The position numbers were made by a program, and so were the translations under genes. Below, in pieces: positions 19,513 through 43,664 of a stretch of 54,129 nt of DNA. The DNA is from an uncultured Devosia sp. Lineage in GTDB: Bacteria > Pseudomonadota > Alphaproteobacteria > Rhizobiales > Devosiaceae. The first letter of the stretch is position 1. The number at the start of each line of letters is the position of its first letter. The notes under the pieces are model-generated. The model was not told where the DNA came from, made no database searches, and worked only from the letters and a program-made list of their open reading frames with translations. The stretch is from NCBI RefSeq assembly GCF_946479885.1, contig NZ_CAMLHM010000022.1, positions 1 to 54,129 of the forward strand. Direction: 5' to 3'.

Positions 19513-19836
19513 TCAGCCGTTCGTGAGCCCCGCCTCGAGGGTGTGATCGTCATTTGCCGCCCGCGCGGACAATTGCAGTCCGAGTGCCCGCATGACGCCC
19601 AACAGGGTGGAGAGCCGCGGGTCGCCCTTGTCGCTGAGGGCTTTGTAGAGCCCTTCTCTGGTGATGCCAGCTTCCCTGGCAACGTCAGACATGCCGACGG
19701 CACGTGCTACGTCGCCCAAAGCATGGGTAATCAGGGAAACATCGCCATCCTCAAGTGCCGACTCGATATAGGCCGCACGATCCTCAGGCGTCTTGAGGAA
19801 ATTCTGAATATCAAACTTGCTGGTTTCAAGGGTCAT
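19513..19836 (-). CDS. Antitoxin of HigBA-like (HI1420-type) module
   Basis: A 107-aa helix-turn-helix protein. The N-terminus FDIQNFLKTPEDRAAYIESAL and the HTH SDVAREAGITREGLYKALS are typical of the putative addiction-module antidote family (HI1420 type). Its ATG overlaps the toxin stop by one base (TGATG), so translation is coupled. It neutralises the upstream RelE-like toxin and probably represses the shared promoter through the palindromes at 20129 and 20166. Confidence 0.9.
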   Translation of the reverse strand: MTLETSKFDIQNFLKTPEDRAAYIESALEDGDVSLITHALGDVARAVGMSDVAREAGITREGLYKALSDKGDPRLSTLLGVMRALGLQLSARAANDDHTLEAGLTNG

Positions 19837-20126
19837 CAGAGTTCCTTTGCCATTTGCTTGGCCATTGCGATGTCGCGGTTCTGGGTAGACTTGTCACCGC
19901 CACAGAGCAGAATGACAATCTCCTGGCCCTGGCGGGTGACGTAGACGCGGTAGCCGGGACCATAGGGAACGCGTAGCTCGCTGACGGTTTCGCCGACCGC
20001 TTTGACATCACCAGGATTGCCCAGCTCCAGTCGCCGGACGCGAACGAGGATGCGGGCGCGAGCATTGCTGTCGCGCAACTCCGTCAGCCATGATGCAAAC
20101 ACCGCCGTCTGGCGAACTTCGATCAT
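19836..20126 (-). CDS. RelE/HigB-like toxin (HI1419-type)
   Basis: A 96-aa toxin of the RelE/ParE fold: WLTELRDSNARARILVRVRRLELG, then GPGYRVYVTRQGQEIVILLCGGDKSTQNRDI is the family hallmark. Relatives cleave mRNA on the ribosome. It precedes the antitoxin gene, the HigBA order. The start codon sits exactly 7 bases after the end of a TATAGT -10 box, so the transcript may begin at the ATG itself and lack a leader. Confidence 0.9.
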   Translation of the reverse strand: MIEVRQTAVFASWLTELRDSNARARILVRVRRLELGNPGDVKAVGETVSELRVPYGPGYRVYVTRQGQEIVILLCGGDKSTQNRDIAMAKQMAKEL

Positions 20127-22480: not shown

Positions 22481-22936
22481 ATGGCCTTCTGGGACGAAAA
22501 AACCCTGGACGAGATGACCGAGGTAGAGTGGGAAGCGCTCTGCGACGGCTGCGGTCGCTGCTGCCTGATCAAGCTCGAGGATGAGGATAGCGGCGTGCTC
22601 ATCACCTCCGATGTCCGCTGCCAGTTGCTGGATGGCGATACCTGCACCTGCACCGACTATCCGGGCCGCCAAGCCAAGGTGCCCGACTGCATCAAGCTGA
22701 CGCCGGAAAATGTCACCGAGATCAAATGGATCCCCACCACCTGCGCCTATCGCCGTATCGCCGAGGGCAAGGGACTGGCCTGGTGGCACCCGCTGATCTC
22801 GGGCGACCCGCAGACGGTGGTGGATGTCGGCGTCTCCGCGCGGGGCCGGACCTTCGCCGAGCAGGACATCGCCCCCGGCGAATGGGAAGACCACGCGGTC
22901 GACTGGCCCGAATGGGAACCGCCCGAGCAGCTTTAG
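22481..22936 (+). CDS. YcgN-type cysteine cluster protein (UPF0260)
   Basis: A 151-aa cytoplasmic protein. The cysteine array CDGCGRCC, VRCQLLDGDTCTCTDY and VPDCIKLTPENV is the UPF0260/YcgN hallmark (zinc- or iron-binding class), followed by the conserved end LISGDP then SARGRTFAE. Molecular function is unknown. It is divergent from the PBP gene and its stop codon overlaps the stop of the convergent Fic gene by 3 bases. Confidence 0.92.
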   Translation: MAFWDEKTLDEMTEVEWEALCDGCGRCCLIKLEDEDSGVLITSDVRCQLLDGDTCTCTDYPGRQAKVPDCIKLTPENVTEIKWIPTTCAYRRIAEGKGLAWWHPLISGDPQTVVDVGVSARGRTFAEQDIAPGEWEDHAVDWPEWEPPEQL

Positions 22937-23517
22937 CTGCGCATGAAGGCGAGCAGCGGCGCCAGGTCGTGCCCGTCGGCTGAGCGAAGCGCTGCCAGGT
23001 AGGCCTGCCTTGTCTCGCCGGCGCTATCGAGGCTATTCCGTCCCCAGGTAAATGGTTCGCGACCCAATTGCCGACACATCAGGTCGGCCGCCAAGCGGGT
23101 GTGACGTCCATTGCCGTTTGTGAAGGGATGGATCAGCACCAGACCGTGGTGGAAGCGAGCGGCGAGTTCATCGGCGGGGTAAGTTTCGTGGGCGAGCCAG
23201 TAGGCCACGTGGTCAAGGAATTCTCGTAGTCTGACCGGAATTTCATGGGGCAGGGCGCCGATATTGGTTTCGCGCACCCGAAATTTGCCTGCCCAGGACC
23301 AGACGTCGCCAAACATGCGCTGATGCAGGCGCATCAGATAGGGTTCTGCCGTCAGGTCAACGCGGCTGCGCAGCGCCCAAGCGCGTCCGGCCAGGATGTT
23401 GATCTGCTCAGCCTCGTTGAGCTCCTGCCGTGTGGTGATCCACGATAGTCGCAGTCCCCTCTGGTCCTCCGGTGGCAGCGGGGTTGAACCCGCCGGCCCG
23501 ACAAAGAGGTCAGTCAT
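22933..23517 (-). CDS. Mobile mystery protein B, Fic-domain toxin-like enzyme
   Basis: A 194-aa Fic protein. The complete active-site motif HPFTNGNGRHTR is present (His130), with the family's N-terminal ELNEAEQINIL and MFGDVWSWAGKFR. Fic enzymes usually transfer AMP from ATP to a protein hydroxyl. I chose the ATG at 23517 because it overlaps the stop of mobile mystery A by 4 bases (ATGA); a GTG at 23529 is possible. The pair acts like a toxin-antitoxin unit and is typically found on mobile DNA or in defence islands. Confidence 0.92.
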   Translation of the reverse strand: MTDLFVGPAGSTPLPPEDQRGLRLSWITTRQELNEAEQINILAGRAWALRSRVDLTAEPYLMRLHQRMFGDVWSWAGKFRVRETNIGALPHEIPVRLREFLDHVAYWLAHETYPADELAARFHHGLVLIHPFTNGNGRHTRLAADLMCRQLGREPFTWGRNSLDSAGETRQAYLAALRSADGHDLAPLLAFMRS

Positions 23518-23975
23518 TTCAGAGACCACAGGTCTCGCTCGGAAATGTGGTCTTCTATGTATTCGGCAATCTGCTGTTGCAGCTCACCTTCGACCTGCTG
23601 ATCCTCCAGCGCCATTGTGTGTGAAACGCCTGAAATGGCAGCTCTTGCCAGGGTCTCCGCTCGCCTTGCCACGTTGGTTTCCAGCGAGGTGTTGGGAACG
23701 AGGGCATAGACCAATGTGCAGTCCATGGCTCTGCCCACGCGTCGAAGAGTGTCGAGGCTAATTCCACCGCTCGCTTCGGCCTTTTCCATGTCGTCCACGG
23801 ACTGCGATCGAACGCCGAGCGCGTTGCCAAGCTGGGCGGACGACAGGCCGATTGAGTCTCTTAGCGCGCGGATCCACCCCTTGGCGGGAGGCTGATGGTC
23901 GGTGGCGGGTTGAAACGCCCGGAGCTTCTTGTCCAGGTTCCTTCTGGCTCGCTGCAAGTTTCGATTCCAAGCCAT
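23514..23975 (-). CDS. Mobile mystery protein A, XRE-type regulator
   Basis: A 153-aa protein with an XRE helix-turn-helix (SSAQLGNALGVRSQSVDDMEKAEA, then GISLDTLRRVGRAMDC) preceded by a conserved basic N-terminus (RRNLDKKLRAF) and a phrase GWIRALRDSIG typical of mobile mystery protein A. It always accompanies mobile mystery B and is presumed to regulate or neutralise it. The four phased palindromes directly upstream (23990-24106) are most likely its operators. Translation is coupled to the Fic gene. Confidence 0.92.
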   Translation of the reverse strand: MAWNRNLQRARRNLDKKLRAFQPATDHQPPAKGWIRALRDSIGLSSAQLGNALGVRSQSVDDMEKAEASGGISLDTLRRVGRAMDCTLVYALVPNTSLETNVARRAETLARAAISGVSHTMALEDQQVEGELQQQIAEYIEDHISERDLWSLK

Positions 23976-23989
23976 TTTTCTGCGTCTCC

Positions 23990-24106
23990 ACCAGGCTATG
24001 ACCTGGTTTTTTGTAGTCTAGAACCAGGTCATAGCCTGGTCCACATGGTGCTGGTACCAGGTTATAGCCTGGTTTTGATAAGCTGAAAACCAGGTTATGA
24101 CCTGGC
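23990..24106. repeat. Four 18-bp palindromic repeats at exactly 33-bp spacing
   Basis: Copies start at 23990, 24023, 24056 and 24089. Consensus ACCAGG-YYATRR-CCTGGT; the arms ACCAGG/CCTGGT are invariant except the last base of copy 4 (C). The six central bases vary between copies but keep a purine/pyrimidine pattern. The 33-bp period is about three helical turns, so all copies face the same side of the DNA. Position immediately upstream of the mobile mystery A start (23975) implies a cooperative operator array for that XRE protein. The 15-bp gaps between copies differ in sequence. Confidence 0.85.
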
Positions 24107-24212
24107 CTTAAATTTACCCTCTCACCCTAGACGGGATACGTAAGACAGGAAATTTACACACCGTTAACCATGTTGTGGCCTGATCCTGCCGTGCGCGAGC
24201 CTAGGATGGGCC

Positions 24213-27322: not shown

Positions 27323-27739
27323 ATGGGTGAGACGACGCAGCGACAGCAGGTCGACTGGGCGGCGGTGCAACTCGACTACGAGCAGGACAATGGGACCCTC
27401 CCTGAAATTTGCGCGCGCCACGGCGTCACCGAGGCGCAGTTGCGGCATCGCCGCGAGCGGCATGGCTGGAAACTGAGGAACGAATGGACGCTACGTATCG
27501 CGCCGCTCATCAACCGCATGATGCGGGTTTTGGACGGTCAGGTCCGTGCACTGGAGAAGCCGATGACCGAACCGGTCGACAGGAATGCCGCCCTGCTGGG
27601 CACGATGACCAAGACGCTGGAAAAACTGATCGAGCTGGACGAGCGGCAGCGGGCCAAGCGGCCCGCCAAGCGCAAGGAAATGAGCGACATCAGGAACAAG
27701 CTGGCGGCGCGAATTGAACAGCTCAAACAGCATCGTTGA
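27323..27739 (+). CDS. GTA gene 1: small terminase-like protein
   Basis: A 138-aa basic protein. The N-terminus has a helix-turn-helix (EICARHGVTEAQLRHRRERHGWKLRNEW), as small terminases do to bind DNA, and the C-terminal half is a charged helix (ERQRAKRPAKRKEMSDIRNKLAARIEQLKQ) suited to oligomerisation and contact with the large subunit. It is the first gene of the cluster, overlaps the large terminase by 26 bases and occupies the g1 position of the Rhodobacter GTA. Assignment rests on position and HTH more than on strong sequence likeness. Confidence 0.78.
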   Translation: MGETTQRQQVDWAAVQLDYEQDNGTLPEICARHGVTEAQLRHRRERHGWKLRNEWTLRIAPLINRMMRVLDGQVRALEKPMTEPVDRNAALLGTMTKTLEKLIELDERQRAKRPAKRKEMSDIRNKLAARIEQLKQHR

Positions 27740-28970
27740 CTATCAAGAGCTGCTCGACGCGCTGGACGAGAATGAAGGTGCCTCTCTCTACTTCGACTGG
27801 CCACTCTGGGCCGAGGCCGCACAACGCGAACCGGATGGGGACTGGACAACCTGGTTGATGATCGGCGGGCGCGGTGCGGGCAAGACCCGCGCCGGTGCCG
27901 AATGGGTCCGCGGCCTTGCCGCGGAGGGTGTGACGCCAATCGCCCTGGTGGGGCAAACGATGACCGAGGCGATTGCCGTGATGGTGCGGGGCGAGAGCGG
28001 GCTGCTGAACATACACCCGCCCAAGGAACGCCCGGTGCTGAGAGACAAGCGGCTGACCTGGCCGAACGGGGTCGAGGCGATGATCCTGTCGGCGAGCAAT
28101 CCGGAGGGATTTCGCGGCCCACAGTTTGCCGCCGCATGGAGCGACGAGGTAGGCAAATGGCCAAAAGCGGAAGCCGCGTGGGACATGTTGCAATTTACGC
28201 TGCGGCTGGGCAAGCGGCCGCGGCAGATGGCGACCACCACCCCTCGCGCAACCAAGCTTATGCGGCGACTGCTGGGTGATCCGCTGACCGCGGTGACGCG
28301 GATGAAGACGAACGAAAACCGGTTTCTCGCACGGGCCTTTCTCAACGCCATCGTCGCCCGCTATCGCGGCTCCATTCTCGGTCGGCAAGAGCTGGATGGG
28401 GAGCTGATCGAGGACGATCCGGGGGCGCTGTGGCAGCGGGGCGTGTTCCGGCGGTTCGGGGGTGGCGAGATCGGGCGCATCGTCGTGGCGGTGGATCCGC
28501 CGGTGACGGGAACGGCGCGGTCCGATGCCTGTGGCATTGTCGTGGCCGGACGGGTGGGCGAGGGCGTCGTGGTGCTGGAAGATTGCACCATGCGGCAGGT
28601 GCCGCCGCTGACCTGGGCGGCGCGGGCGGTGGCTGCCTTTGAAGCGCACCAGGCCGATGCCATCGTGGTCGAGGTGAACCAGGGCGGCGACCTGGTGCGG
28701 GCACTGATCGGGCAGGTCGACCCCGATGTGCCGGTGCGCGAAGTGCGGGCCTCCAGGGGCAAGTGGATGCGGGCCGAGCCGGTGGCGGCGCTCTATGGGC
28801 GCGGGCTGGTGAGCCATGCCGATGGACTGACTGATCTGGAAGACGAGATGTGCGCGTTTGGGGTGGACGGGAAGAGTGACGGGCATTCGCCGGACCGTGT
28901 CGACGCGCTGGTCTGGGCGGTGACGGAACTGCTGCTCAACGACATGCGACCGCGGATACGCGGGCTTTGA
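27714..28970 (+). CDS. GTA gene 2: large terminase (TerL)
   Basis: The 418-aa DNA-packaging motor. The ATPase half has Walker A GGRGAGKTR (51-59) and a Walker B region FAAAWSDEVGKW. The nuclease half has the first acidic site VVAVDPPVTG, a second in IVVEVNQGG, and DRVDALVWAVTELL near the end, as in phage and GTA terminases. In GTAs it packages random host DNA by headful. The start is TTG at 27714 inside gene 1. The family is intact, with no frameshift. Confidence 0.94.
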   Translation: MNSSNSIVDYQELLDALDENEGASLYFDWPLWAEAAQREPDGDWTTWLMIGGRGAGKTRAGAEWVRGLAAEGVTPIALVGQTMTEAIAVMVRGESGLLNIHPPKERPVLRDKRLTWPNGVEAMILSASNPEGFRGPQFAAAWSDEVGKWPKAEAAWDMLQFTLRLGKRPRQMATTTPRATKLMRRLLGDPLTAVTRMKTNENRFLARAFLNAIVARYRGSILGRQELDGELIEDDPGALWQRGVFRRFGGGEIGRIVVAVDPPVTGTARSDACGIVVAGRVGEGVVVLEDCTMRQVPPLTWAARAVAAFEAHQADAIVVEVNQGGDLVRALIGQVDPDVPVREVRASRGKWMRAEPVAALYGRGLVSHADGLTDLEDEMCAFGVDGKSDGHSPDRVDALVWAVTELLLNDMRPRIRGL

Positions 28971-28984
28971 GCCGATCCGCAGGA

Positions 28985-29206
28985 CAATTCGCTCCAGTGG
29001 AGCGAATTGAGGCGAAAAGGCCATGAGGGCTACGCCCGAATGGCGGGGAGCCGAACCCGCAGTCGTCTCCCTCCCCTTGTGGGGATCAAGGGTGGGGGTG
29101 GTCACAAGCACCGCGTTTGCGGAAAGACACCCCCACCCTGCTCGATTCAACGGACTTAGCTGACGCTAAGTCCTATCTCGCTTCCCTCCCCACAAGGGGG
29201 AGGGTG
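28985..29206. repeat. Composite hairpin repeat between terL and portal genes
   Basis: It starts with a perfect 12-bp-arm hairpin CAATTCGCTCCA-G-TGGAGCGAATTG (28985-29009) and continues to 29046 as an inverted copy of 25013-25060. It then carries the CCTCCCC-type units typical of the window and a 9-bp stem GGACTTAGC-TGAC-GCTAAGTCC (29152-29173). It ends CCTCCCC-ACAAG-GGGGAGG. No gene is seen in it. Confidence 0.75.
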
Positions 29207-29223
29207 ATAACTGATGGGCCGGT

Positions 29224-29373
29224 TCAGGACAGCCTTGCGCACTCGGCGCAAAGCGGCTTGCCGCCGGTGCCGGAGCGCCGGTTCTCGGTCTCGATGTTGT
29301 TGCCAGTGTTGCAGTTGCTGTTGTCGTGGTGAACCGATTGCTTAATCGAATGCCACGGAGATTTCTTTGCCAT
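29224..29373 (-). CDS. Small 49-aa cysteine protein, antisense inside the GTA cluster
   Basis: A short minus-strand gene. The product starts MAKKSPWHSIKQSVHHDN and has a compact conserved-looking body: CNTGNNIETENRRSGTGG, then KPLCAECARLS at the end. The pattern (His-Asp-Asn, Cys, NNIE, NRRSGTGG, CxxC) matches a family of tiny bacterial proteins of unknown function that I have seen before, and looks like a metal site of three Cys plus His. Reading frame and motif, not length, support it. It sits between terL and portal, opposite in direction, so it is transcribed separately. Confidence 0.72.
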   Translation of the reverse strand: MAKKSPWHSIKQSVHHDNSNCNTGNNIETENRRSGTGGKPLCAECARLS

Positions 29374-29489
29374 CGTCTGACGCCTGCATGGATCGTGAAG
29401 GCATCAAAAATGGGTGATTCCGGGCGAAGCCGGAATTAGTGCGCACCCCATTGGGATTCATACGGCCTTCAGTCTCAAGGAACCAAAAC

Positions 29490-30644
29490 ATGCCGAACTG
29501 GATCAGCCGCCTCCTGGGTGGTGCAGCGAACACGCCTGCGGAACGGAAGAGCTTTGCCGGGCATACGCTGCTGAGCCTTTCCCAGCTGGGGGCGGCGAGC
29601 TGGAGCAATCGGGGATTTGCCAGCCTGGTCAACCAGGGTTTTGCGCGGAACCCGGTGGTCTATCGCTGCGTGCGCCTGATCGCCGAGACGGCCAATCGCG
29701 TGCCTCTCGTGGTGAACGACGGGGGCAGACGGGTGGATGAGCATCCGCTGGCGACGCTCCTGGCGCGGCCCAATGGGCGGCAATCGGGCGGGGAGCTGCT
29801 CGAGGCGGTTTATGCCTATCTCCAGACGGCGGGGAATGCCTATCTGCAGGCGGGAATCGTCGATGGCGAGGTGCGTGGCATCTTTGGGCTGCGACCAGAC
29901 CGGATGAAGGTGGTGGCCGGCGCCGATGGCTGGCCCATGGCTTATGACTATACCGCCGGCGGGCGGACGATCCGGCTGCGCCAGGATGAGGGGCCGTTGC
30001 CGTCGGTGCTGCATATGGCTTTGTTTCATCCGCTCGACGATCACTATGGCATGGCGCCGCTCGAGGCAGCGCAGACCAGCCTCGATATCCACAATGCCGC
30101 CGGGCAGTGGAACAAGGCGCTGCTCGACAACGCGGCGCGGCCATCGGGCGCGCTGGTCTATTCGGCGGCGGGGCAGAGCCTGACCGAGGACCAGTTCAGC
30201 CGGCTCAAGGCTGAGCTGGAGCAGAACTTTTCCGGCGCCGCCAATGCCGGCAGGCCGATGCTGCTCGAGGGCGGGCTGGACTGGAAGGCTATCGCGCTGT
30301 CGCCCCGCGACATGGACTTCATCGAGGCCAAGCACGCCGCGGCGCGCGACATCGCGCTGACCTTCGGCGTGCCGCCCATGCTGCTCGGCATACCGGGCGA
30401 CAATACTTACGCGAACCTCGCCGAAGCCAACCGGGCGCTGTGGCGGCAGACGCTGATCCCGCTGGTGGTGCGGGTGGCCGAGGAGCTGAGCAACTGGCTG
30501 TCGCCGGCCTTCGGCGGAGCCACGGTGGCACCGGATTTCGATGGCGTCGAGGCGCTGGCCGAGGACCGGGCGGCGCTGTGGACGCGGGTGGGCGGGGCGG
30601 AGTTTCTGAGCGACGCGGAGAAGCGGGCGATGCTGGGGGTTTAG
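29490..30644 (+). CDS. GTA gene 3: portal protein (HK97 type)
   Basis: A 384-aa portal that forms the ring at the unique capsid vertex through which DNA enters. ARNPVVYRCVRLIAETANRVPL, the LLARPNGRQSGGELLEAVYAYLQTAGNAYL region and the late DIALTFGVPPMLLGIPGDNTYANLAEANRALWRQTL are characteristic HK97-type portal features. The ATG at 29490 has AAGGA upstream; a start at 29439 would add an unlike leader. It follows a repeat-rich gap and an antisense gene, so it may need its own promoter or read-through. Confidence 0.95.
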   Translation: MPNWISRLLGGAANTPAERKSFAGHTLLSLSQLGAASWSNRGFASLVNQGFARNPVVYRCVRLIAETANRVPLVVNDGGRRVDEHPLATLLARPNGRQSGGELLEAVYAYLQTAGNAYLQAGIVDGEVRGIFGLRPDRMKVVAGADGWPMAYDYTAGGRTIRLRQDEGPLPSVLHMALFHPLDDHYGMAPLEAAQTSLDIHNAAGQWNKALLDNAARPSGALVYSAAGQSLTEDQFSRLKAELEQNFSGAANAGRPMLLEGGLDWKAIALSPRDMDFIEAKHAAARDIALTFGVPPMLLGIPGDNTYANLAEANRALWRQTLIPLVVRVAEELSNWLSPAFGGATVAPDFDGVEALAEDRAALWTRVGGAEFLSDAEKRAMLGV

Positions 30645-30645
30645 G

Positions 30646-31239
30646 CTACAGGGAACAGAGGAAGGCATTCCCTCGGCGGACGTCAGGCAGCACCTCGGCC
30701 ATCTCTAGTGAGGCCGCCGCCGGTCCAAGCGCTGTCTTTGCATCCTCGAGCCCGCTGCGATCCACTCGAATAGGACCGAAACCCTCCGGACCGCTGATCT
30801 GTGGCCTTAGATCGGGCGTGGCAGAGCGGGAAAACTCGCCGACGTAAACCAATTTGCCCGCAGGAGCGACAAAAGCAGCAGGGTCGGTGTCGACAACGTA
30901 ACCCGACGTATTGAAGAAGCTAACCACGTAGGCGCCTGGCGGTACGTCGAACACGAAGTACGAGGTTCCATCGGTACCAGAAGTTGCCTCTGTGTGGTCG
31001 TAGCGGCCGCAATTTCCGGCGTCGCCGGTGGTGGGGTCATAGCGGGCCAGAGCGAGGGTGAGGCCGCCATTTGAGGCGTCCAGACCATACACCAGCCGGG
31101 TGACGTTCGTGGTGTTGCCGGGCTTCGGCAAATTGGTAAGTCGAACAGCATTGCTCGGGCCGAAAAAACAGCCCTGCAGGCTCAAAGCGAGCAGCATTGC
31201 CGCTGAAGCGGCCACTAGGCGCTGGGTCGTCGATCGCAT
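30646..31239 (-). CDS. Predicted lipoprotein, antisense inside the GTA cluster
   Basis: A 197-aa protein with a lipobox LSLQGC (Cys24) after a hydrophobic signal (VAASAAMLLALSLQ). The mature domain is beta-rich (TRLVYGLDASNGGLTLALARYD, VFDVPPGAYVVSFFNTSGYVV) and may be an Ig-like or surface beta-sandwich domain; I do not recognise a named family. It reads against the GTA genes, ends one base after the portal stop, and separates portal from gene 3.5. I chose the ATG at 31239; one 30 bases earlier is possible. This position resembles a moron or a gene that has moved in. Confidence 0.78.
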   Translation of the reverse strand: MRSTTQRLVAASAAMLLALSLQGCFFGPSNAVRLTNLPKPGNTTNVTRLVYGLDASNGGLTLALARYDPTTGDAGNCGRYDHTEATSGTDGTSYFVFDVPPGAYVVSFFNTSGYVVDTDPAAFVAPAGKLVYVGEFSRSATPDLRPQISGPEGFGPIRVDRSGLEDAKTALGPAAASLEMAEVLPDVRRGNAFLCSL

Positions 31240-31313
31240 CGCTATATGTCCCTCGCGCCGACTTTGCACGATCGACGAGCGGACTCAAGCGGCCATCTCT
31301 TTGGAGAACCATC

Positions 31314-31502
31314 ATGGACGAGCTGACCAAAACCGTCATCGAGCGGGGTGATCTCGCGCATCTGGCGCTGTTTTTGTGGGCGACCGGAGCGAGCACGCTG
31401 CTGGTGTGGGCGCTGCGCGAGATGGCCAAGGTGAATCAGCACTTTAACGACTTCGTGCAGGAGATCGCGAGTTTGAATCGGCTGTTCAGGAAGGATGACT
31501 AA
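31314..31502 (+). CDS. GTA gene 3.5: head formation small membrane protein
   Basis: A 62-aa protein with one hydrophobic segment (HLALFLWATGASTLLVWAL) and a helical tail (FNDFVQEIASLNRLFRKDD). It sits between portal and prohead protease, where RcGTA has gene g3.5 of similar size. The ATG at 31314 has GGAGAACCATC upstream. Its exact role in head formation is unknown. Confidence 0.78.
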   Translation: MDELTKTVIERGDLAHLALFLWATGASTLLVWALREMAKVNQHFNDFVQEIASLNRLFRKDD

Positions 31503-31506
31503 GGTC

Positions 31507-31626
31507 ATGGCCAGCAAGCAGAATTTGCAGAATGCGCAGCAGACGTTCCGGCAATTCGCCTGGAACCTGGCGGGGACGCTGGCGCGGCCCGGCAAGGCGG
31601 TCGCGGCCAAGCCGGGCAAGCGCTGA
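31507..31626 (+). CDS. Unusual 39-aa basic ORF coupled to the prohead protease gene
   Basis: A tiny ORF, MASKQNLQNAQQTFRQFAWN... ending PGKAVAAKPGKR, basic and likely helical. It begins 4 bases after gene 3.5 and its TGA shares one base with the protease ATG (TGATG), so it is set up for coupled translation. It has no known family to my knowledge. The tight spacing on both sides supports a real gene, but a spacer peptide ensuring protease translation is also possible. Confidence 0.5.
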   Translation: MASKQNLQNAQQTFRQFAWNLAGTLARPGKAVAAKPGKR

Positions 31627-32102
31627 TGGCGGGTATTCCCATCGATGCCGAGGGACGGTTTTCCGGCTATGCCAGCATTTTCAACCGGCTCGACAGCGGT
31701 GGCGACATCGTCATGCCGGGGGCGTTCAGCAAGAGCCTCAGCAAACGGCGCGATCGTATCCGGCTGCTGTTCCAGCATGACCCCAAGGAGCCCGTGGGCA
31801 CTTGGGACGCCATCGGCGAGGACGGCCATGGCCTGTTCGTGGCCGGCCGGCTGGTGCCGGGCGTGGAGCGCGCCGATGCGCTGCGGCGGTTGATCGAGGG
31901 CGGGGCGCTCGATGGTTTGTCCATCGGCTTCCGGACCGTGAAGGCCACCCGCGAGGGTGGGCATCGCAAGCTCTGGCAGATCGACCTGTTCGAGATTTCG
32001 ATCGTGACTTTTCCGATGATGGAGGACGCGCGCATTGCGCCCTCAGGCTATTCGACCGGCGCCGCCATCGTGGCCGCCACCAACACCATCCGCAACCGAT
32101 AG
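31626..32102 (+). CDS. GTA gene 4: prohead maturation protease (HK97 U35 type)
   Basis: A 158-aa protease that trims the capsid protein during head maturation. GRFSGYASIFNRLDSGGDIVMPGAF at the N-terminus, catalytic His51 in LLFQHDPKEPVG and Ser99 in LDGLSIGF fit the U35 family. The gene is complete and intact. It lies 11 bp before the capsid gene and overlaps the 39-aa ORF by one base. Confidence 0.94.
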   Translation: MAGIPIDAEGRFSGYASIFNRLDSGGDIVMPGAFSKSLSKRRDRIRLLFQHDPKEPVGTWDAIGEDGHGLFVAGRLVPGVERADALRRLIEGGALDGLSIGFRTVKATREGGHRKLWQIDLFEISIVTFPMMEDARIAPSGYSTGAAIVAATNTIRNR

Positions 32103-32112
32103 GGACACCTAC

Positions 32113-33333
32113 ATGGACATGACCAGTGACGGCCTTGAAACCAAGGCCGGCGCGGGGAGCGACGTTGCCGCGCTCTTCGCCGAATTCTCGACCGCGTTCG
32201 AGGAATTCAAGCGCACCAACGACCAGCGCCTGGGCGAGATCGAGAAGCGCGGTTCGGCCGACGGGCTGCTTGAAGGCAAGCTCGACCGGCTCAACGCCGT
32301 GCTTGACGGGCAGAAGGCGGCGATGGACCGGGCGCTGGTGGAGCGGGCGCGTCCGCTGCTCGATGGCAAGGCCATCCGCCATGACGGCGAATACAAGGAA
32401 GCGTTCGCCTCCTATGTGAAGCGCGGCGAGGAGAAGGCGCTGTCGATCGGCGTCAATGCCGATGGCGGCTATGTGGTGCCGCCCGAAACCGAGACCGAAA
32501 TCACCCGGCTGATGACGGCGGTATCGCCGATCCGCGCCATATCGGGCGTGCGGCAGGTGTCGGCTTCGGTCTACAAGCGGCCCATCTCGGTGACCGGGCC
32601 GGCGACGGGCTGGGTGGGCGAGACGGCGGCGCGACCGACCACGAACAGCCAGACGTTGGCCGAACTGAGCTACCCGACCATGGAACTCTATGCCATGCCG
32701 GCGGCCACCTCGGCCTTTCTCGACGATGCCGCAGTCGATGTGGGCCAGTGGATTGCCGACGAGGTCAACGCGGCCTTTGCGGCGCAGGAGACCACGGCGT
32801 TCGTCACCGGCAACGGCACCAACAAGCCGACGGGTTTCCTGGCAGCCACGGCTGTGGCCGAAGCGAGCTGGAGCTGGGGCAATCTCGGCTATATCGCCAC
32901 CGGCACGGCCGGCGCGCTGCCGGCCAGCAATGCCAGCGATGTGCTGATCGATCTCGTCTATGCGCTCAAGGCCGGCTATCGCCAGAATGCCAGCTGGGTG
33001 ATGAACCGCAAGGTGCAGGGCGCCCTGCGCAAGCTCAAGGATGCCGACGGCAACTACCTGTGGCAGCCGGCACTGACGGCTGACGGCAAGGCGCGCTTCA
33101 TGGGCTTCGAGCTGGTCGAGGCCGAGGACATGCCCAACATCGGGGCGAACTCGCTGTCGATCGCCTTCGGTGACTTCAAGCGCGGCTATCTGATCGTGGA
33201 TCGCCAGGGTGTGAGCGTGCTACGCGACCCGTTCAGCAGCAAGCCGTATGTGCTGTTTTATACCACCAAGCGCGTGGGCGGTGGCGTGGCGGACTATGAC
33301 GCGATCAAGCTGCTGAAGTTCGCCGTCTCGTAA
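32113..33333 (+). CDS. GTA gene 5: major capsid protein (HK97 fold)
   Basis: A 406-aa major head protein. About 100 residues of coiled scaffold (FEEFKRTNDQRLGEIEKRGS and LDGQKAAMDRALVERA) precede the HK97 core that starts near SIGVNADGGYVVPPETETEI. Core features include TGWVGETAARPTTN, ELYAMPAATSAFLDDAAVD, TTAFVTGNGTNKPTGF and the C-terminal VSVLRDPFSSKPYVLFYTTKRVGG. The scaffold is expected to be removed by the gene 4 protease. The ATG at 32113 follows the AGGGACACCTAC leader. Confidence 0.95.
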   Translation: MDMTSDGLETKAGAGSDVAALFAEFSTAFEEFKRTNDQRLGEIEKRGSADGLLEGKLDRLNAVLDGQKAAMDRALVERARPLLDGKAIRHDGEYKEAFASYVKRGEEKALSIGVNADGGYVVPPETETEITRLMTAVSPIRAISGVRQVSASVYKRPISVTGPATGWVGETAARPTTNSQTLAELSYPTMELYAMPAATSAFLDDAAVDVGQWIADEVNAAFAAQETTAFVTGNGTNKPTGFLAATAVAEASWSWGNLGYIATGTAGALPASNASDVLIDLVYALKAGYRQNASWVMNRKVQGALRKLKDADGNYLWQPALTADGKARFMGFELVEAEDMPNIGANSLSIAFGDFKRGYLIVDRQGVSVLRDPFSSKPYVLFYTTKRVGGGVADYDAIKLLKFAVS

Positions 33334-33359
33334 ACGCCGTGATCCTGGCCAGCTAGAGC

Positions 33360-33420
33360 GAAGGCCTGCGCTCCGGTGCTCACGTACTAAGAGTACGCTC
33401 CGCTCCGGTGCTCGGGCCTC
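33360..33420. repeat. CGTACT/AGTACG repeat after the capsid gene
   Basis: GCTCCGGTGCTCACGTACT-AAG-AGTACGCTCCGCTCCGGTGCTCG, a hairpin (CGTACT-AAG-AGTACG, 33385-33399) flanked by GCTCCGGTGCTC on both sides. A diverged second copy lies at 36796-36860 with loop CCAAA. The 292-bp gap 33334-33625 contains this and the 33507 hairpin and no gene. Confidence 0.7.
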
Positions 33421-33506
33421 CACTCTATCTGACTCAGGCTGACGGCGTTTCCTTCGCGGCGCGGTGCCTCCCTGACCACGAACGGAGCGAGGCGCGGCGC
33501 CCTCTT

Positions 33507-33527
33507 CCTCTCCCCATCGGGGAGAGG
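33507..33527. repeat. Hairpin repeat CCTCTCCCC-ATC-GGGGAGAGG
   Basis: A perfect 9-bp stem, one of the CCTCCCC-type repeats of the window, 98 bp before the gene 6 start. GGCC-GCA-GGCC follows it at 33530-33540. No T-run. Confidence 0.7.
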
Positions 33528-33625
33528 ACGGCCGCAGGCCGGGTGTGGGGGCGCTCGGGTCCGCCCAGCATGCTGGGTAAGCCGAAAGCTCCCCCTCAGC
33601 GCTCACCAAACCAAAAGGCAAAACA

Positions 33626-34192
33626 ATGACTTCTTACCTTCTCGCCGGGCCCGCGGAGGAGCCGGTTTCGCTTGGCGAGGCCAAGGCGTTTCTGCGGGTC
33701 GACGACGCTGCCGAGGACGCCTTGATCACGACGCTGATTGGGGCGGCGCGGCTGCATGTCGAGGGCGTGACCGGGCGGGCGCTGCTGGCGCAGAGCTGGC
33801 GCGTGGTGCTCGATTGCTGGCCCGAGGACCGGCAGGTGAAACTGCCGGTGAGCCCGTTCATGGCGCTGACCGAAGTCACCGCCTATGACGCAACCGGGGC
33901 AGGGCACGACGTGTCGCTGGCGCAGTTCCTGCGCGAGCCGGACCGGTTGCTGCTGCCGGCTGCTGTGGCCGGCATGCCCGTGCTGCGCGAGCGCCAGGGG
34001 ATCGAGATCGACTATGTCGCCGGCTTCGGCACCGAACCGGAGGATGTGCCTGCCGATATTCGCCAGGCGTTGCTGCTGCTGGTCGGCTACTGGTTCGAGC
34101 ATCGCGATGCGGTGATCGTGGCCGGTTCAGGCGCTGTAGTGCCATCGGGCTTTGACCGCATGGTCGCCGGCTACAAGCGGGTGCGGCTGTGA
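33626..34192 (+). CDS. GTA gene 6: head-tail connector (adaptor)
   Basis: A 188-aa adaptor that sits below the portal. EPVSLGEAKAFLRVD and TTLIGAARLHVEGVTGRALLAQSWRVVLD are the hallmarks of the phiE125 gp8/HK97 gp6-like family, and DIRQALLLLVGYWFEHRDAV is the conserved C-terminal helix. The stop overlaps the next gene by 4 bases (GTGA). It follows a 292-bp repeat region after the capsid gene. Confidence 0.93.
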   Translation: MTSYLLAGPAEEPVSLGEAKAFLRVDDAAEDALITTLIGAARLHVEGVTGRALLAQSWRVVLDCWPEDRQVKLPVSPFMALTEVTAYDATGAGHDVSLAQFLREPDRLLLPAAVAGMPVLRERQGIEIDYVAGFGTEPEDVPADIRQALLLLVGYWFEHRDAVIVAGSGAVVPSGFDRMVAGYKRVRL

Positions 34193-34530
34193 ACGAGGCA
34201 CCACCACCCATCGGTACATTGACCGACCGCGTGCAGCTCAAGCGGCGCGAGATGACCGGGGAAACCGAGGGTGGTCATGTGGCCTTGTTCGTGCCGGTAA
34301 CCAACCTTTGGGCCCGGGTGCGCTCGCTGACTGGGCGGCAGGGCACCAGTGCCGATGGCCGGGCCGTGGAGATTTCCCACGCGGTGGTCTTCCGCTTCCG
34401 CAATGACATCAAGCCGGGCGACCGCATCGTTTATCGCGGGCGGAACCTGGATGTGGTGAGCGCGGCTGACCTCAATGGGCGGCGGGCCTATCTGAGCTGC
34501 GCCTGCAGCGAAACCAGCTTCACGGGATAG
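34189..34530 (+). CDS. GTA gene 7: head closure protein (stopper)
   Basis: A 113-aa protein of the head-closure (SPP1 gp16-like) group: LTDRVQLKRREMTGETEGGH, LWARVRSLTGRQGT, and the beta region HAVVFRFRNDIKPGDRIVYRGRNLDV. It closes the head after packaging and joins the tail. The start is GTG at 34189, coupled to gene 6. Confidence 0.9.
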   Translation: MNEAPPPIGTLTDRVQLKRREMTGETEGGHVALFVPVTNLWARVRSLTGRQGTSADGRAVEISHAVVFRFRNDIKPGDRIVYRGRNLDVVSAADLNGRRAYLSCACSETSFTG

Positions 34531-34548
34531 GATCAGGGGGTAGGGGCC

Positions 34549-34947
34549 ATGCATCCGATTTCCCTGTTGCAGGCCGCGCTGGTGACGGCACTCAAGGCCG
34601 ACGCGGCGCTGGTGGCGATAGCGGGCGCCGATGGCGTGTTCGACGCGGCGCCCAAGGGGCGGCCGGCGCCCTATGTGGTGATCGCGCGGCACGACATCGT
34701 CCAGCGCGATGGCGATGACTCGCCCGGGCAGGAGCACCGGCTGCTGCTGCATTGCTGGGGCGACCAGCCCAGCCGCAAGCGGGCGCTGGATATGGCCGAG
34801 CGTGTGATTGAGGTGGCGGGCACGTTCGTGGCCGCGGGGATCACCGTGACGCATCGCGAGCATGTGCGAACCGAGACGGTGATCGATCGGGATACCGGGC
34901 TGGCGCGGGCGGCGGTGGGGCTGCGGTTTTTCTCAGAGCCGGTCTAG
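34549..34947 (+). CDS. GTA gene 8: tail completion protein (DUF3168)
   Basis: A 132-aa protein of the DUF3168 group, which ends the tail tube at the head interface. LLQAALVTALKADAALVAI, the GVFDAAPKGRPAPYVVIARHD block and a C-terminal GLARAAVGLRFFSEPV are typical. GGGGG lies 8 bases before the ATG. A 200-bp repeat region follows before the tube gene. Confidence 0.92.
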   Translation: MHPISLLQAALVTALKADAALVAIAGADGVFDAAPKGRPAPYVVIARHDIVQRDGDDSPGQEHRLLLHCWGDQPSRKRALDMAERVIEVAGTFVAAGITVTHREHVRTETVIDRDTGLARAAVGLRFFSEPV

Positions 34948-34965
34948 CACCGACCGCGCGGTGCC

Positions 34966-35113
34966 TGCGCCTCCCTCCCCCTTGAGGGGAGGGAATGAGG
35001 GAGAGGGTGGGTCAGTTGGCTACGACCCGACCCCCACCCCAGCTCCGCTACGGCCCGTCGGGCCAGGCTTCGCTACCCTCCCCTCAAGGGGGAGGGAGGG
35101 CAGGAGCCGGGAC
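34966..35113. repeat. CCTCCCCC-type palindromic repeat pair between genes 8 and 9
   Basis: Two facing hairpins of the same family: CTCCCTCCCCCTTGAGGGGAGGGA on the left and TACCCTCCCCTCAAGGGGGAGGGA on the right, each a perfect or near-perfect stem with a short loop, separated by GGCCCGTCGGGCC. The arrangement is an inverted repeat of repeats. Confidence 0.75.
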
Positions 35114-35150
35114 ATAGTGATCTCTGAACCTCAATCCAAAGGACAAACAC

Positions 35151-35564
35151 ATGGCCGCTCAGAGCGGGAAGAATATGCTGCTCAAGCTCGACCAGACCGG
35201 GTCGGGGAGCTTTCTGACGGTGGCGGGTTTGCGGACGCGCGCGCTGGCCTTCAATGCCTCGACGGTCGATACGACCGACCAGGAAAGCGCCGGGCATTGG
35301 CGGGAATTGCTGGCCGGCGGCGGGGTGAAGCGGGCTTCGGTGACGGGTGCCGGCGTGTTCAAGGACACGACCTCGGATGCCCAGGTGCGCGCGCTGTTCT
35401 TTGCCGGGACCATCCGCAACTGGCAGCTGATCATCCCCGATTTCGGCACGGTGCAGGGGCCATTCCAGATCGTGGCGCTGGAGTTTGCCGCCGACCATGC
35501 CGGCGAGGTGACGTTCGACCTGGCGCTGGAGAGTGCGGGTGAAGTGACGTTTGCGGCGATTTAG
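35151..35564 (+). CDS. GTA gene 9: major tail tube protein (TP901-1 type)
   Basis: A 137-aa tail tube subunit. SGKNMLLKLDQTGSGSFLTVAGLRTRALAF, ESAGHWRELLAGGGVKRASVTGAGVFKD and the late FAADHAGEVTFDLALESAGEVTFAAI are typical of the TP901-1 major tail protein family. The ATG at 35151 follows AAGGACAAAC. The gene stands alone between two repeat blocks (34966-35113 and 35580-35695), which may help it be expressed more strongly than its neighbours. Confidence 0.93.
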   Translation: MAAQSGKNMLLKLDQTGSGSFLTVAGLRTRALAFNASTVDTTDQESAGHWRELLAGGGVKRASVTGAGVFKDTTSDAQVRALFFAGTIRNWQLIIPDFGTVQGPFQIVALEFAADHAGEVTFDLALESAGEVTFAAI

Positions 35565-35579
35565 GCGGGCATGCCGGTG

Positions 35580-35695
35580 GTGCCTTCGCCTCCCTCCCCC
35601 TTGAGGGGAGGGACCGAGGGAGGGGGTCGTTTGGTGGGTCCATTGATGGCCCCCCACCCCCGACCCCTCCCCTCAAGGGGGAGGGGAGGCAGACT
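35580..35695. repeat. CCTCCCCC-type palindromic repeat pair between genes 9 and 10
   Basis: Two facing hairpins, CTCCCTCCCCC-TTGAGGGGAGGGA and ACCCCTCCCC-TCAAGGGGGAGGGG, the same mirrored layout as at 34966-35113. It sits immediately after the tail tube gene and lacks T-runs. Confidence 0.75.
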
Positions 35696-35714
35696 TCAAC
35701 ATCGAGGACTTAAC

Positions 35715-36029
35715 ATGGCTATCACCCAACGCGGTGAAATCGACGCTGTCATTGGCGGGGAGACCCGGACGCTTTGCCTGACGCTGGGCGCGCTGGCGGA
35801 GCTGGAGAGCCGGCTGCAGGCGGGGGATTTGGTGGGGTTGGCGGAGCGATTTTCCGGCGGTCGGATATCGGCCCGGGACCTGACGGCGATTTTGGGGGCC
35901 GGGCTGCGCGGCGGGGGCAATGCCATCACCGACGATGACCTGGCGCGGTTTTCGATCGAGGGCGGGCTCAAGGGCGCGGCGGAGATCGCGGCGCGGCTGT
36001 TGCGGGCGACGTTTGGAGACTCTGCATGA
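35715..36029 (+). CDS. GTA gene 10: tail assembly chaperone-like protein
   Basis: A 104-aa protein of the gene-transfer-agent-specific group (GTA gp10-like). It reads AITQRGEIDAVIGGETRTLCLTLGALAELESRLQ, then RDLTAILGAGLRGGG and AARLLRATFGDSA. The position before the short DUF2376 gene and tape measure matches RcGTA g10. It overlaps the next gene by 4 bases (ATGA). A start at 35571 would read through the repeat and is rejected. Confidence 0.87.
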   Translation: MAITQRGEIDAVIGGETRTLCLTLGALAELESRLQAGDLVGLAERFSGGRISARDLTAILGAGLRGGGNAITDDDLARFSIEGGLKGAAEIAARLLRATFGDSA

Positions 36030-36214
36030 CGCCGTTTCCCTGGGACAGCGCGATGCGCTTCGGGCTGGGCGTGCTGCGACTGCCGCCGCGCGATTTCTGG
36101 CGCATGACGCCGCGCGAGTTGGCCGCCGCCTGGGGCGCCGTCTTGGGCGATCGCGGGCCCCTTGCTCGCAATGAACTCGACGGATTGATGGAGCGCTTTC
36201 CCGATGGTCGATAA
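36026..36214 (+). CDS. GTA gene 10.1: small tail chaperone (DUF2376)
   Basis: A 62-aa protein: GLGVLRLPPRDFWRMTPRELAAAW is the core of the DUF2376 family of GTA/phage tail assembly chaperones. It lies between gene 10 (4-base overlap) and the tape measure gene (11-base overlap). Chaperones here sit where lambda G/T act to load the tape measure. Confidence 0.88.
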   Translation: MTPFPWDSAMRFGLGVLRLPPRDFWRMTPRELAAAWGAVLGDRGPLARNELDGLMERFPDGR

Positions 36215-36761
36215 CCTGTTTCCCGACAGCTTTCACGACGAACTGACCAGCGTCGAAATCGAGCTGGGACGCATCGGCAACCTGGCCGATGGGGTGGCGC
36301 GCTCGATCAGTGCCGGCTTCCGCGGCGCGCTGCTCGAGGGCAAGTCGCTCAAATCCGTATTGGGCGACATCGCCCGCAGCTTTGCCGACATCGCGCTCAA
36401 GGCGGCGATCAAGCCGCTGGGCGACATGGTCGGCGGGCTGATTGGCAACCTGTTTGCCGGAACCAATCCGGCGCTCGGCAATGTCACACCCTTCGCCAAG
36501 GGCGGGGTGATCGCGACGCCGAGCTACTTTCCGCTGGGTGCTTCTCCTCCTGTGGGCCTAGCGGGGGAAGCGGGACCGGAGGCGATCATGCCTCTGGCCC
36601 GCGGCCCCGACGGCCGGCTGGGCGTGGCCGGGGGCGGCGGCGGTGCGGTGAATGTGACCTTCAACGTGACGGCGAGCGACGCGCGCAGCTTCGCGGCGAG
36701 CGAGGCGGAGATCAGCGCGATGCTGCTCAGGGCGGTGAAGCGGGGGACGCGCAGCGCTTGA
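36204..36761 (+). CDS. GTA gene 11: tape measure protein
   Basis: A 185-aa tape measure, short as in GTAs, which have short tails. ASP-rich start FHDELTSVEIELGRIGNLADG, amphipathic helix LKSVLGDIARSFADIALKAAI, glycine-rich LGDMVGGLIGNLFAG and the conserved FAKGGVIATPSYFPLG and EAGPEAIMPL are seen. The length of this protein sets tail length; at 185 aa the tail would be short. The reading frame is intact. Confidence 0.9.
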   Translation: MVDNLFPDSFHDELTSVEIELGRIGNLADGVARSISAGFRGALLEGKSLKSVLGDIARSFADIALKAAIKPLGDMVGGLIGNLFAGTNPALGNVTPFAKGGVIATPSYFPLGASPPVGLAGEAGPEAIMPLARGPDGRLGVAGGGGGAVNVTFNVTASDARSFAASEAEISAMLLRAVKRGTRSA

Positions 36762-36795
36762 TATTCAGGTGATGCCGGCCTGCAAGCGGCAGGTT

Positions 36796-36860
36796 TCTGC
36801 GCTTCCGGTGCTCACGTACCCAAACGTACGCTGCGCTCCGGTTCTCGAAACCCGCCCCTT
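36796..36860. repeat. CGTAC repeat copy 2 before gene 12
   Basis: CGCTTCCGGTGCTCACGTAC-CCAAA-CGTACGCTGCGCTCCGGTTCTCG. It matches 33360-33420 with a different loop and one unpaired arm base. The 156-bp gap 36762-36917 contains nothing else I can identify. Confidence 0.65.
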
Positions 36861-36917
36861 TCGGCTCGGCCTGACCTGAATCTCTTCGCGCTGTGGTGCC
36901 ACAACGGGAGACTAGAA

Positions 36918-37538
36918 ATGGCCTTTCACGCAGTGCGGTTTCCGCTCGACGTTGCTCTGGGTTCGCGGGGCGGACCGGAGCGGCGGACCGATGTGGTCAC
37001 GCTGGCCGGTGGCGGCGAGCAGCGCAATGGGCGGTGGCAGCATTCGCGGCGGCGCTACAATGCGGGCTATGGCGTCAAGTCGCGGGCCGACATGGCTGAT
37101 GTGCTGGCGTTTTTCGAGGAAAGGCGTGGGCGGCTGCATGGTTTTCTGTGGCGCGATGGGCTGGATTTTTCCAGCGGCGGTGCCACCCCGACGGCGCTGG
37201 ATCAGCCGATCGGGGTTGGCGATGGCAGCCGGACGGGCTTCCAGCTGACCAAGCGCTATGGCGCGGCGTTCGACCCGTATTTCCGGCCGATCACCCGGCC
37301 CGTTGCGGGGAGCGTCCGTGTGGCGGTGGCTGGCGTCGAGCTGATGAGCGGCTGGGGCGTCGACGTGGCGACGGGGCTGGTCGGCTTTGCCGTGCCGCCA
37401 GCCAATGGCGCGGCGGTGACGGCGGGATTTCTGTTCGACGTGCCAGTGCGGTTCGATACCGACCGGCTCGATGTGGAACTGACCAGCTTCGACGGGGCCG
37501 AGGCGCCTGTTATTCCGCTGGTGGAGATCTTGCCATGA
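36918..37538 (+). CDS. GTA gene 12: distal tail protein (DUF2460)
   Basis: A 206-aa protein of the TIGR02217/DUF2460 family. FHAVRFPLDVALGSRGGPER, YNAGYGVKSRADMADVLAFFEERRGRLHGFLWRDGLDF and the C-terminal FDVPVRFDTDRLDVELTSFDGAEAPVIPLVEI are family landmarks. In RcGTA it forms the ring below the tube. It overlaps gene 13 by 4 bases. Start ATG at 36918 with GGGAGAC upstream. Confidence 0.94.
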   Translation: MAFHAVRFPLDVALGSRGGPERRTDVVTLAGGGEQRNGRWQHSRRRYNAGYGVKSRADMADVLAFFEERRGRLHGFLWRDGLDFSSGGATPTALDQPIGVGDGSRTGFQLTKRYGAAFDPYFRPITRPVAGSVRVAVAGVELMSGWGVDVATGLVGFAVPPANGAAVTAGFLFDVPVRFDTDRLDVELTSFDGAEAPVIPLVEILP

Positions 37539-38425
37539 GGGTGCTCGATATCGGGCTCGCGGCGCATCTGGCGCAGAGCGAGACGACGCTGGCCACCTGC
37601 TGGAAGCTGCTGCGCGGCGATGGCGTCGTGCTGGGCTTCACCGATCATGACCGGACCTTGAGCTTTGGCGGCGTGGATTTTGTGCCGGCACATGGGCTCG
37701 ATGGCGGCGAGGTGCCGGCGCGGCTGGGGGCGCAGGTGGAGACATCGGAGGTGCTCGGCGTGCTCAGCGCCGATGATATCACCGAGGACGACATTCTGCT
37801 CGGGCGCTATGACGGCGCTGCGGTGGAGACCTGGCGGGTCAACTGGGCCGATGTGAGCCAAAGGGTTCGGCTGCGCAGCGACACGATCGGCGAGATTATC
37901 CGCGAGGATGGGGTGTTCCGGGCGGAGCTGCGCTCGGCGCACCAGGGGCTCAACGCGACGCGCGGGCGGATCTACCAGGGGCTGTGCGACGCGGCGGTCG
38001 GCGATGCGCGCTGTGGGGTGAACCTGACGGCGCCAGCGTTTCGCGGCTTTGCCACGGTGACTGCCATCGAGGATGCCCATCGGGTGGTGGTGGCGGGGCT
38101 GAGTGGGTTCGACGAGGGCTGGTTTGGTTTCGGGACTGCGCAGTGGACCGACGGGCAGCGGACCGGGCTGCGCGATGGCGTGGTGACGCATCAGCGGGCC
38201 AGTGGCGGCGATGTGCTGGGTTTTGGCGTAAGCGTGGGCGACTGGGTCGTGCCGGGCGATACGCTTGAGGTGGCGGCCGGCTGCGACCGGCGCTTTGCCA
38301 GCTGCCGCGGCAAGTTTGCCAATGCGGTCAACTTTCGCGGCTTTCCGCATATTCCGGGCAGCGATTTCGTGCTGCGGCATCCGCGCAATGGTGACGCGTT
38401 GGATGGCAGGGCGGTGGTGAAATGA
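37535..38425 (+). CDS. GTA gene 13: baseplate hub (DUF2163)
   Basis: A 296-aa hub of the DUF2163 family. HLAQSETTLATCWKLLRGDGVVLGFTDHDR, DILLGRYDGAAVETWRVNW and the late FANAVNFRGFPHIPGSDFV are the conserved parts. Cysteines in CDAAVGDARCG and CDRRFASC fit the iron-sulfur-type cluster reported in the RcGTA hub (from memory, with moderate certainty). The ATG at 37535 overlaps gene 12; a longer frame from 37148 is a shadow. Confidence 0.93.
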   Translation: MRVLDIGLAAHLAQSETTLATCWKLLRGDGVVLGFTDHDRTLSFGGVDFVPAHGLDGGEVPARLGAQVETSEVLGVLSADDITEDDILLGRYDGAAVETWRVNWADVSQRVRLRSDTIGEIIREDGVFRAELRSAHQGLNATRGRIYQGLCDAAVGDARCGVNLTAPAFRGFATVTAIEDAHRVVVAGLSGFDEGWFGFGTAQWTDGQRTGLRDGVVTHQRASGGDVLGFGVSVGDWVVPGDTLEVAAGCDRRFASCRGKFANAVNFRGFPHIPGSDFVLRHPRNGDALDGRAVVK

Positions 38426-38853: not shown

Positions 38854-38863
38854 ATGTCCAGTC

Positions 38864-39068
38864 TACACCCTCCCCCTTGCGGGGAGGGATCAAGGGTGGG
38901 GGATGTTGGGCCCGGATATCGGGGCTCTCAACACCCCCTCCCAACCTCCCCCGTCGAGGGGGAGGTGCCGCTCCGTGGATGCGGTGAGACTGCGCCACAG
39001 GTCAACCTCACAAGGCCCCCTCACCCGACCCAAGAGGGTCGACCTCTCCCCCCAAAGGGAGAGGTGAA
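38864..39068. repeat. CCTCCCCC-type palindromic repeat block between genes 14 and 15
   Basis: CACCCTCCCCCTTGCGGGGAGGG (38868-38889) is followed by a second unit AACCTCCCCCGTCGAGGGGGAGGTGCC (38943-38969) and a third CCTCTCCCCCCAAAGGGAGAGG (39042-39064). All are near-perfect hairpins; the 229-bp gap holds no gene. Confidence 0.75.
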
Positions 39069-39082
39069 GAAAGGATTTCGGC

Positions 39083-43574: not shown

Positions 43575-43664
43575 GTCTAGAGCGGGCAAGCCTGACGCAA
43601 GGACTTGAGACAGCCGCTTCTTGCGCTATATTCCATGCCGAACCGCCACGGTTTCGGAGCCTGC

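Follow-up and report, generated by a model that had tools for sequence, protein, structure and literature searches.

Evenly phased palindromes upstream of mobile mystery A/B genes as the probable autoregulatory operator of a putative Fic toxin-antitoxin pair

The closest described relatives in design of mobAB, the mobile mystery A/B gene pair, are found among toxin-antitoxin (TA) operons. The hipBA operon of Escherichia coli encodes an XRE antitoxin, as mobAB probably does, and its four 18-bp operators (TATCC-N8-GGATA) are bound cooperatively (PMC3376134). It differs from mobAB in having the HipA kinase as its toxin, another half-site and a step between O1 and O2 of 28 bp, as counted on the oligonucleotide printed in that paper (PMC3376134). 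In the hipBST operon of Legionella, the gene of an XRE antitoxin is likewise preceded by inverted repeats at even intervals, three in number and 18 nt long (PMC10653801). In contrast to mobAB, the repeats of hipBST are separated by 53-bp gaps, two of the three sites are asymmetric, the toxin is HipT, and the arrangement, in the text available, is that of one genus and one sequence family (PMC10653801).

Other likenesses come from Fic proteins. In the class I Fic modules VbhTA and EcFicTA, as in mobAB, the Fic gene lies directly behind a small gene, which in those two modules encodes the antitoxin. The antitoxins of this class carry an inhibitory helix with the motif (S/T)xxxE(G/N) (PMC3667792, PMC5033356), whereas in MobA the residue after the glutamate mostly differs. 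MobA also has an XRE-type helix-turn-helix (HTH) domain, unlike VbhTA and EcFicTA, and neither "DNA-binding" nor "autoregulat" appears anywhere in the paper on EcFicTA. Phd-Doc resembles what is proposed below for mobAB in that its toxin has the Fic fold and its antitoxin shows cooperative binding to paired palindromes in E. coli, where the toxin forms the bridge (PMC13034048). The system departs from mobAB in having two sites and no array, and an antitoxin of a different fold. Phd is not known to be an XRE protein. Finally, the Xre-RES module of Pseudomonas putida combines an XRE antitoxin with autorepression through promoter repeats and a higher-order complex, as mobAB might (PMC12204516); its toxin, however, is a RES protein, a 4:2 complex sits on a palindromic repeat, a second site is suggested, and the text available describes no array (PMC12204516).

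A survey of type II TA systems lists Fic/Doc toxins as paired with AbrB, YhfG and PHD (PMC2701414, as far as its text was available), and a paper on a Coxiella plasmid TA system was set aside as a relevant case, the accessible part of it describing a HigBA-type pair (PMC10098735). The publications consulted that mention the mobile mystery pair merely list the pair or MobB in the passages available. The earlier note on this DNA had known of no operator array for the family, and likewise no description of an operator of the pair came to light in searches of open-access papers.

The locus examined here lies in a stretch of 54,129 bases (the window), and its features are collected in Table 1. The mobA and mobB genes overlap by 16 nt with mobA upstream; a divergent GGDEF-domain gene lies beyond the array, which is 106 bp from the GGDEF start codon, and a YcgN-family gene flanks the pair on the opposite side. 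Close relatives of MobA that have a name belong to Devosia, and Devosia sp. LC5 (L011) has the same gene order. Elsewhere in the window there is a second TA-like pair (19513-20126, minus strand), consisting of an HTH antidote protein (dnstrm_HI1420, 93.5 bits) and a Gp49-like protein (28.0 bits). A phage-like block on the plus strand, at about 27700-43600, encodes a terminase large subunit, a portal, a major head protein, a head-tail adaptor, tail proteins, a glycoside hydrolase and an endolysin-like protein, a layout that we take to be reminiscent of a gene transfer agent.

Table 1. Features of the mobAB locus in the window, and orphan arrays in three other genomes
Feature	Position	Strand	Sequence or basis
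Operator-like palindrome 1, nearest mobA	23990..24007	none	ACCAGGCTATGACCTGGT
Operator-like palindrome 2	24023..24040	none	ACCAGGTCATAGCCTGGT
Operator-like palindrome 3	24056..24073	none	ACCAGGTTATAGCCTGGT
Operator-like palindrome 4, farthest from mobA, one mismatch	24089..24106	none	ACCAGGTTATGACCTGGC
mobA, mobile mystery protein A, 153 aa, XRE-type HTH	23514..23975	-	TIGR02612
(S/T)MxLExQ segment of mobA, codons 120-126	23598..23618	-	TMALEDQ; likeness to Fic-inhibitory motif
mobB, mobile mystery protein B, 198 aa, Fic protein	22933..23529	-	TIGR02613
FIC motif of mobB, residues 134-145	23095..23130	-	HPFTNGNGRHTR; sequence and alignment
Orphan two-site array, L165	about 3109-3159		genome without mobA match
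Orphan two-site array, L166	about 3411-3461		genome without mobA match
Orphan two-site array, L167	about 3069-3119		genome without mobA match

The four evenly phased palindromes to which the earlier note had drawn attention are real. Three are exact copies of ACCAGG-N6-CCTGGT in steps of exactly 33 bp, and the fourth, a further 33 bp on, departs from that form only in its last base (T to C). With up to two mismatches allowed, the form occurs 12 times in the whole window, above the shuffled sequences (mean 2.14 and maximum 6 in 100 shuffles). When all 54,129 bases were scanned without a motif, at distances of 18-60 bp, the only palindrome pairs to score at least 21 of 24 points were the three consecutive pairs of the array. 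The sites share 14-17 of their 18 bases with one another; for the 15-bp spacers between them the figure is only 3, 7 and 2 of 15. The proximal site is 14 bp from the mobA ATG, and a search of the array region of the window found no consensus promoter. Another copy of the palindrome, with two mismatches, occurs at 24167-24184, within the leader sequence of the divergently transcribed GGDEF gene; this stretch is identical in L011 and has a looser form in L167, a genome without mobAB. It was rejected as a fifth site because it is out of phase (78 bp from the site at 24089) and has that looser version in a mobAB-less genome.

The gene pair behind the array is a genuine mobile mystery A/B pair, as had been claimed, with both proteins above the curated cut-offs of their families (MobA 162.6 bits against 122.6 for TIGR02612; MobB 244.8 bits against 124.4 for TIGR02613). 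MobA scores 22.8 bits with Pfam HTH_3, slightly below the cut-off of 23. Its fold matches cover the HTH only (residues about 28-93) at Foldseek E values of 0.043 or worse; the top row is the Legionella protein HipB(Lp), at 0.043, and HipB is also among them. By sequence, the best PDB relative of MobA has an E value of 0.023. Downstream of the HTH, S/T120 and E124 of the (S/T)MxLExQ segment are kept in 55 of 55 sequences of one set (A2) and 26 of 30 of another (A4), although the G/N after E124 that the strict (S/T)xxxE(G/N) motif calls for is present in just 3 of 55 and 8 of 30, respectively. The predicted structure has a pLDDT below 50 at residues 120-127.

MobB scores 51.3 bits with Pfam Fic, and VbhT and EcFicT are among its fold matches. 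It carries the canonical FIC motif expected of a class I Fic TA module, and the motif is intact, with H134, F136, N138, G139, N140, G141, R142 and R145 invariant in an alignment of 42 sequences. An inhibitory motif within MobB itself, of a kind that Fic proteins of class I modules lack, was found in 1 of 42 in the strict form and in 12 of 42 in the relaxed form, (S/T)xxxE at T32. MobB also matches the PADLOC candidate defence family PDC-S04 (1.2e-23), and MobA weakly matches capH (1.7e-5). No MobA relatives were found in the phage collection at an E value of 1e-5.

To place the array among its relatives, 119 mobA loci were considered (the window, L001-L090 and L107-L134): 10 from plasmids, the best 80 of 393 confirmed in named genomes, and the rest from the same phylum and family. 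They are mostly from Alphaproteobacteria, with the addition of an actinobacterial plasmid (L005), Vibrio plasmids and genomes of one phylum, and the mobA start codons of the fetched loci were assigned by script. L123 (no tblastn hit) and L119 (too little upstream sequence) were left out, giving 117; a redundancy filter removed another 14, giving 103; and L067, whose protein is shorter than 110 aa, was omitted from later counts, giving 102. L124-L128 were kept although they fall below the family cut-off. For each 150-bp upstream region, the best distance between mutually similar palindromes was sought from 18 to 60 bp, with the sequence itself left free.

With ties shared, 82.6 of the 103 regions had their best period at 32 or 33 bp, compared with a mean of 4.8 and a maximum of 8.7 in 20 sets of dinucleotide shuffles. 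Between -400 and -250 of the same loci, 32/33 was best in 7.0 of 102, and within the first 150 bases of mobA in 1.8 of 103, yet 13.6 of those coding regions peaked at 34, presumably a coding repeat. With 200-bp regions, 32/33 was the sole best in 72 of 102 loci, tied in 12 and was surpassed in 18. Shared ancestry makes the loci dependent on one another (one cluster holds 68 of the 102); since rhizobial loci dominate the sample, the count was also made by protein clusters at 55% identity, 15 of 20 of which were best only at 32 or 33, with 2 ties and 3 at neither. A strong pair at any distance from 18 to 60 bp was present in 51 loci, and 48 of these were at 32 or 33 (35 at 33 and 13 at 32, with one each at 31, 34 and 51). 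Phased arrays near other mobA genes, for which the earlier note had proposed a search, are therefore present, contrary to the absence that it had named as refuting its claim; the regular step recurs, but as 32 or 33 and not invariably 33.

Further sites were sought with a half-site taken from the best 32/33 pair scoring at least 18, which 67 of 102 loci had, and only outside that pair. They numbered 84: 47 stood at a distance of exactly 32 or 33 bp, where mononucleotide shuffles predict 0.05, and 19 at 64-67 bp, where 0.25 is predicted. A third site in step is found in 42 of 67 loci. Distances that differ by one turn of the helix in either direction gave no peak among the 84, with one site at 23 bp and none at 42-44. 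Because of this, the spacing suggests a fixed distance, such as touching or bridged complexes would have, and not merely a common face of the helix; the helical phasing to which the earlier note appealed looks more like a fixed step of about three turns than like helix face alone. By a permissive chain extension in steps of 31-34 bp only, there are at most an estimated two sites in 13 loci, three in 24, four in 18 and five in 12 (n=67). In these loci the mobA start codon follows 2 to 71 bp after the end of the proximal site. L121, which is above the family cut-off, had no array, and L124-L128, below it, had no pair of at least 18 points. Among the 102 fetched loci, 95 have a mobB match and seven do not. 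Two of the seven, L008 (mobA at 2399-2881) and L129 (1501-1953), keep a 32-bp palindrome pair with mobB undetected in the fetched stretch, a slight hint that MobA sets the distance by itself. Four of the remaining five are L125-L128, which lie below the family cut-off.

The palindromes themselves vary more than their spacing. Devosia, Tardiphaga and other Devosiaceae have arms of ACCAGG or TCCAGG; rhizobia and several further Alphaproteobacteria have ATCAG; another group has GTCAAT or GACAAT, and Vibrio plasmids have GTATC, with GCTCAT and others elsewhere. The dominant form, ATCAG-N-YTATAR-N-CTGAT, was derived from 230 sites, mostly of the large cluster. The sequence ACCAGG/CCTGGT, for which the earlier note had proposed to look, is the version of Devosia and Tardiphaga only. 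Sites of one locus are 68% identical, and the AT-rich spacers 30%. Since sites are alike and spacers unrelated (2-7 of 15 bases in the window; the 30% within-locus identity over 74 pairs), the regular 33-bp step did not come from a duplicated 33-mer, and a tandem duplication was ruled out. Differences in array sequence correlate with those in the recognition-helix region of MobA (r 0.60) and in the rest of the protein (r 0.62), and because they track both about equally, the arrays can be said to evolve together with mobA. The part specific to the recognition helix is small (partial r 0.13; 38 of 999 permutations), and the recognition helix was not adopted as the main determinant of operator sequence. 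From these comparisons, 18-bp palindromes with a period of 32-33 bp can be placed upstream of mobA in most of the lineages examined, with a palindrome that drifts from lineage to lineage and a spacer whose sequence is free.

The pair itself is patchily distributed. At an E value of 1e-20, mobA was found in 11 of 136 Devosiaceae genomes and in 21 of 398 genomes drawn from the phylum; relatives of MobA numbered 1494, and 250 of 72,556 plasmid records contained one. The two-site, 33-bp Devosia-type pattern was matched in 37 of the 136 Devosiaceae genomes with up to three mismatches; in six of them no more than one mismatch was needed. Judged by their sequences, the weaker matches, with two or three mismatches, look like chance in GC-rich DNA, save one that extends the G002 array. 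Of the Devosiaceae with mobA, seven or eight have a 32-bp step or other arms, so that the pattern should not match them. In three of the six genomes with at most one mismatch the array adjoins mobA; in the other three mobA was not found and the array adjoins a YcgN-family gene, with a GGDEF gene as well in L166 and L167, as in the window. L166 retains the last 28 codons of mobB (19 of 28 identical). These orphan arrays are read as scars of mobAB loss, and it seems that mobAB comes and goes at this site next to YcgN.

The reading that best accommodates these results, which we would put at roughly 70%, is that the array is the autoregulatory operator of mobAB, to which dimers of MobA bind, and that MobB is a Fic-type toxin held by MobA. 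One MobA dimer would sit, by its XRE-type HTH, on each palindrome, and because the centre-to-centre distance is fixed at about three helical turns, neighbouring dimers could either touch or be bridged by MobB, producing one continuous complex over the promoter region that would repress mobAB. Neighbouring complexes would then probably act cooperatively. As the antitoxin, MobA might use its (S/T)MxLExQ segment to keep MobB inactive, in the manner of VbhA and EcFicA with their partners; because this nearly invariant segment resembles the Fic-inhibiting motif of class I antitoxins, MobA is probably repressor and antitoxin in one protein. If MobA were to fall relative to MobB, the complex would disassemble and the operon would be switched on. 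A rise of the Mesorhizobium loti mobB gene (mll2066, beside a mobA gene) in heat shock, where in the text available it is among the 50 most raised (M 4.02), fits with an autoregulated TA operon.

By analogy, the array would best be read as working like the promoters of hipBA and hipBST, whose sites have the same length of 18 bp. Several palindromic sites do stand upstream of the operon, as in HipBA, but the partner of MobA is a Fic protein and not a HipA-type kinase; mobAB is therefore no member of the HipBA family, though its working may be similar. A more detailed picture is offered tentatively and at somewhat less than even odds: MobA would have an XRE-type operator-binding head and a tail that inhibits Fic, from two to five dimers would line up on the promoter at the fixed step of about three turns, either by themselves or with MobB as a bridge, the architecture would be conserved while the recognition sequence was repeatedly replaced, and the array might serve to count the ratio of antitoxin to toxin.

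Other explanations of the repeats can be weighed against the operator. The period of 32-33 bp could conceivably be set by RNA polymerase, with the right arms and cores of adjacent sites serving as -35 and -10 boxes. Several sites do have TATA-like cores, some groups have TTGAC in the right arm, and where the best promoter-like -10 begins within a site, it does so at offset 7 in 13 of 67 loci and at offset 17 in 11; yet the remaining best promoter-like pairs are scattered over many positions, the array region of the window is without a consensus promoter, and one promoter has no need of the third in-step site that most of these loci possess, all of which makes this geometry unlikely. That the palindromes act instead as RNA hairpins or terminators, in the mobA leader or in a divergent transcript, might be thought from the terminator-like hairpins on the plus strand at 23990-24007 and 24090-24105, where shuffles predict 0.3. 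Hairpins, however, need no fixed period with free spacers, and positions 6 and 13 form a Watson-Crick pair in just 47% of the 230 sites (28% expected from composition), while the would-be loop at positions 7-12 has the symmetric consensus YTATAR and its pairs are complementary no more often than composition predicts. We regard this explanation as very improbable.

Equally hard to credit is the idea that a mobile element carrying mobAB uses the repeats for its recombination or transfer. The word "mobile" in the name and the patchy occurrence of mobA in Devosiaceae, the phylum and plasmids would agree with it, but an array that is one-sided, keeps a nearly constant place before mobA and persists in part where mobAB has gone would not. 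Its place between mobA and the GGDEF gene, an order shared by L011, could also mean that the array mainly controls the divergent gene or is a general chromosomal element. This is the most improbable of the alternatives: the arrays of plasmid mobA genes have quite different upstream neighbours, and matches with no or one mismatch were confined to the six Devosiaceae genomes of the 136, where they lie beside mobA or where it has been lost.

Read as the operator of mobAB, the array would give a widespread "mystery" pair a testable role, as a Fic TA module with its own operator code. If MobA does unite DNA binding with Fic inhibition, it would join two activities that are not combined in the class I Fic antitoxins as the available texts describe them. 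Taken together, the arrays are a natural set of variants, with the spacing kept and the recognition sequence varied, and such a series would be useful for following how XRE-type specificity changes and for learning why adjacent repressors need a fixed distance.
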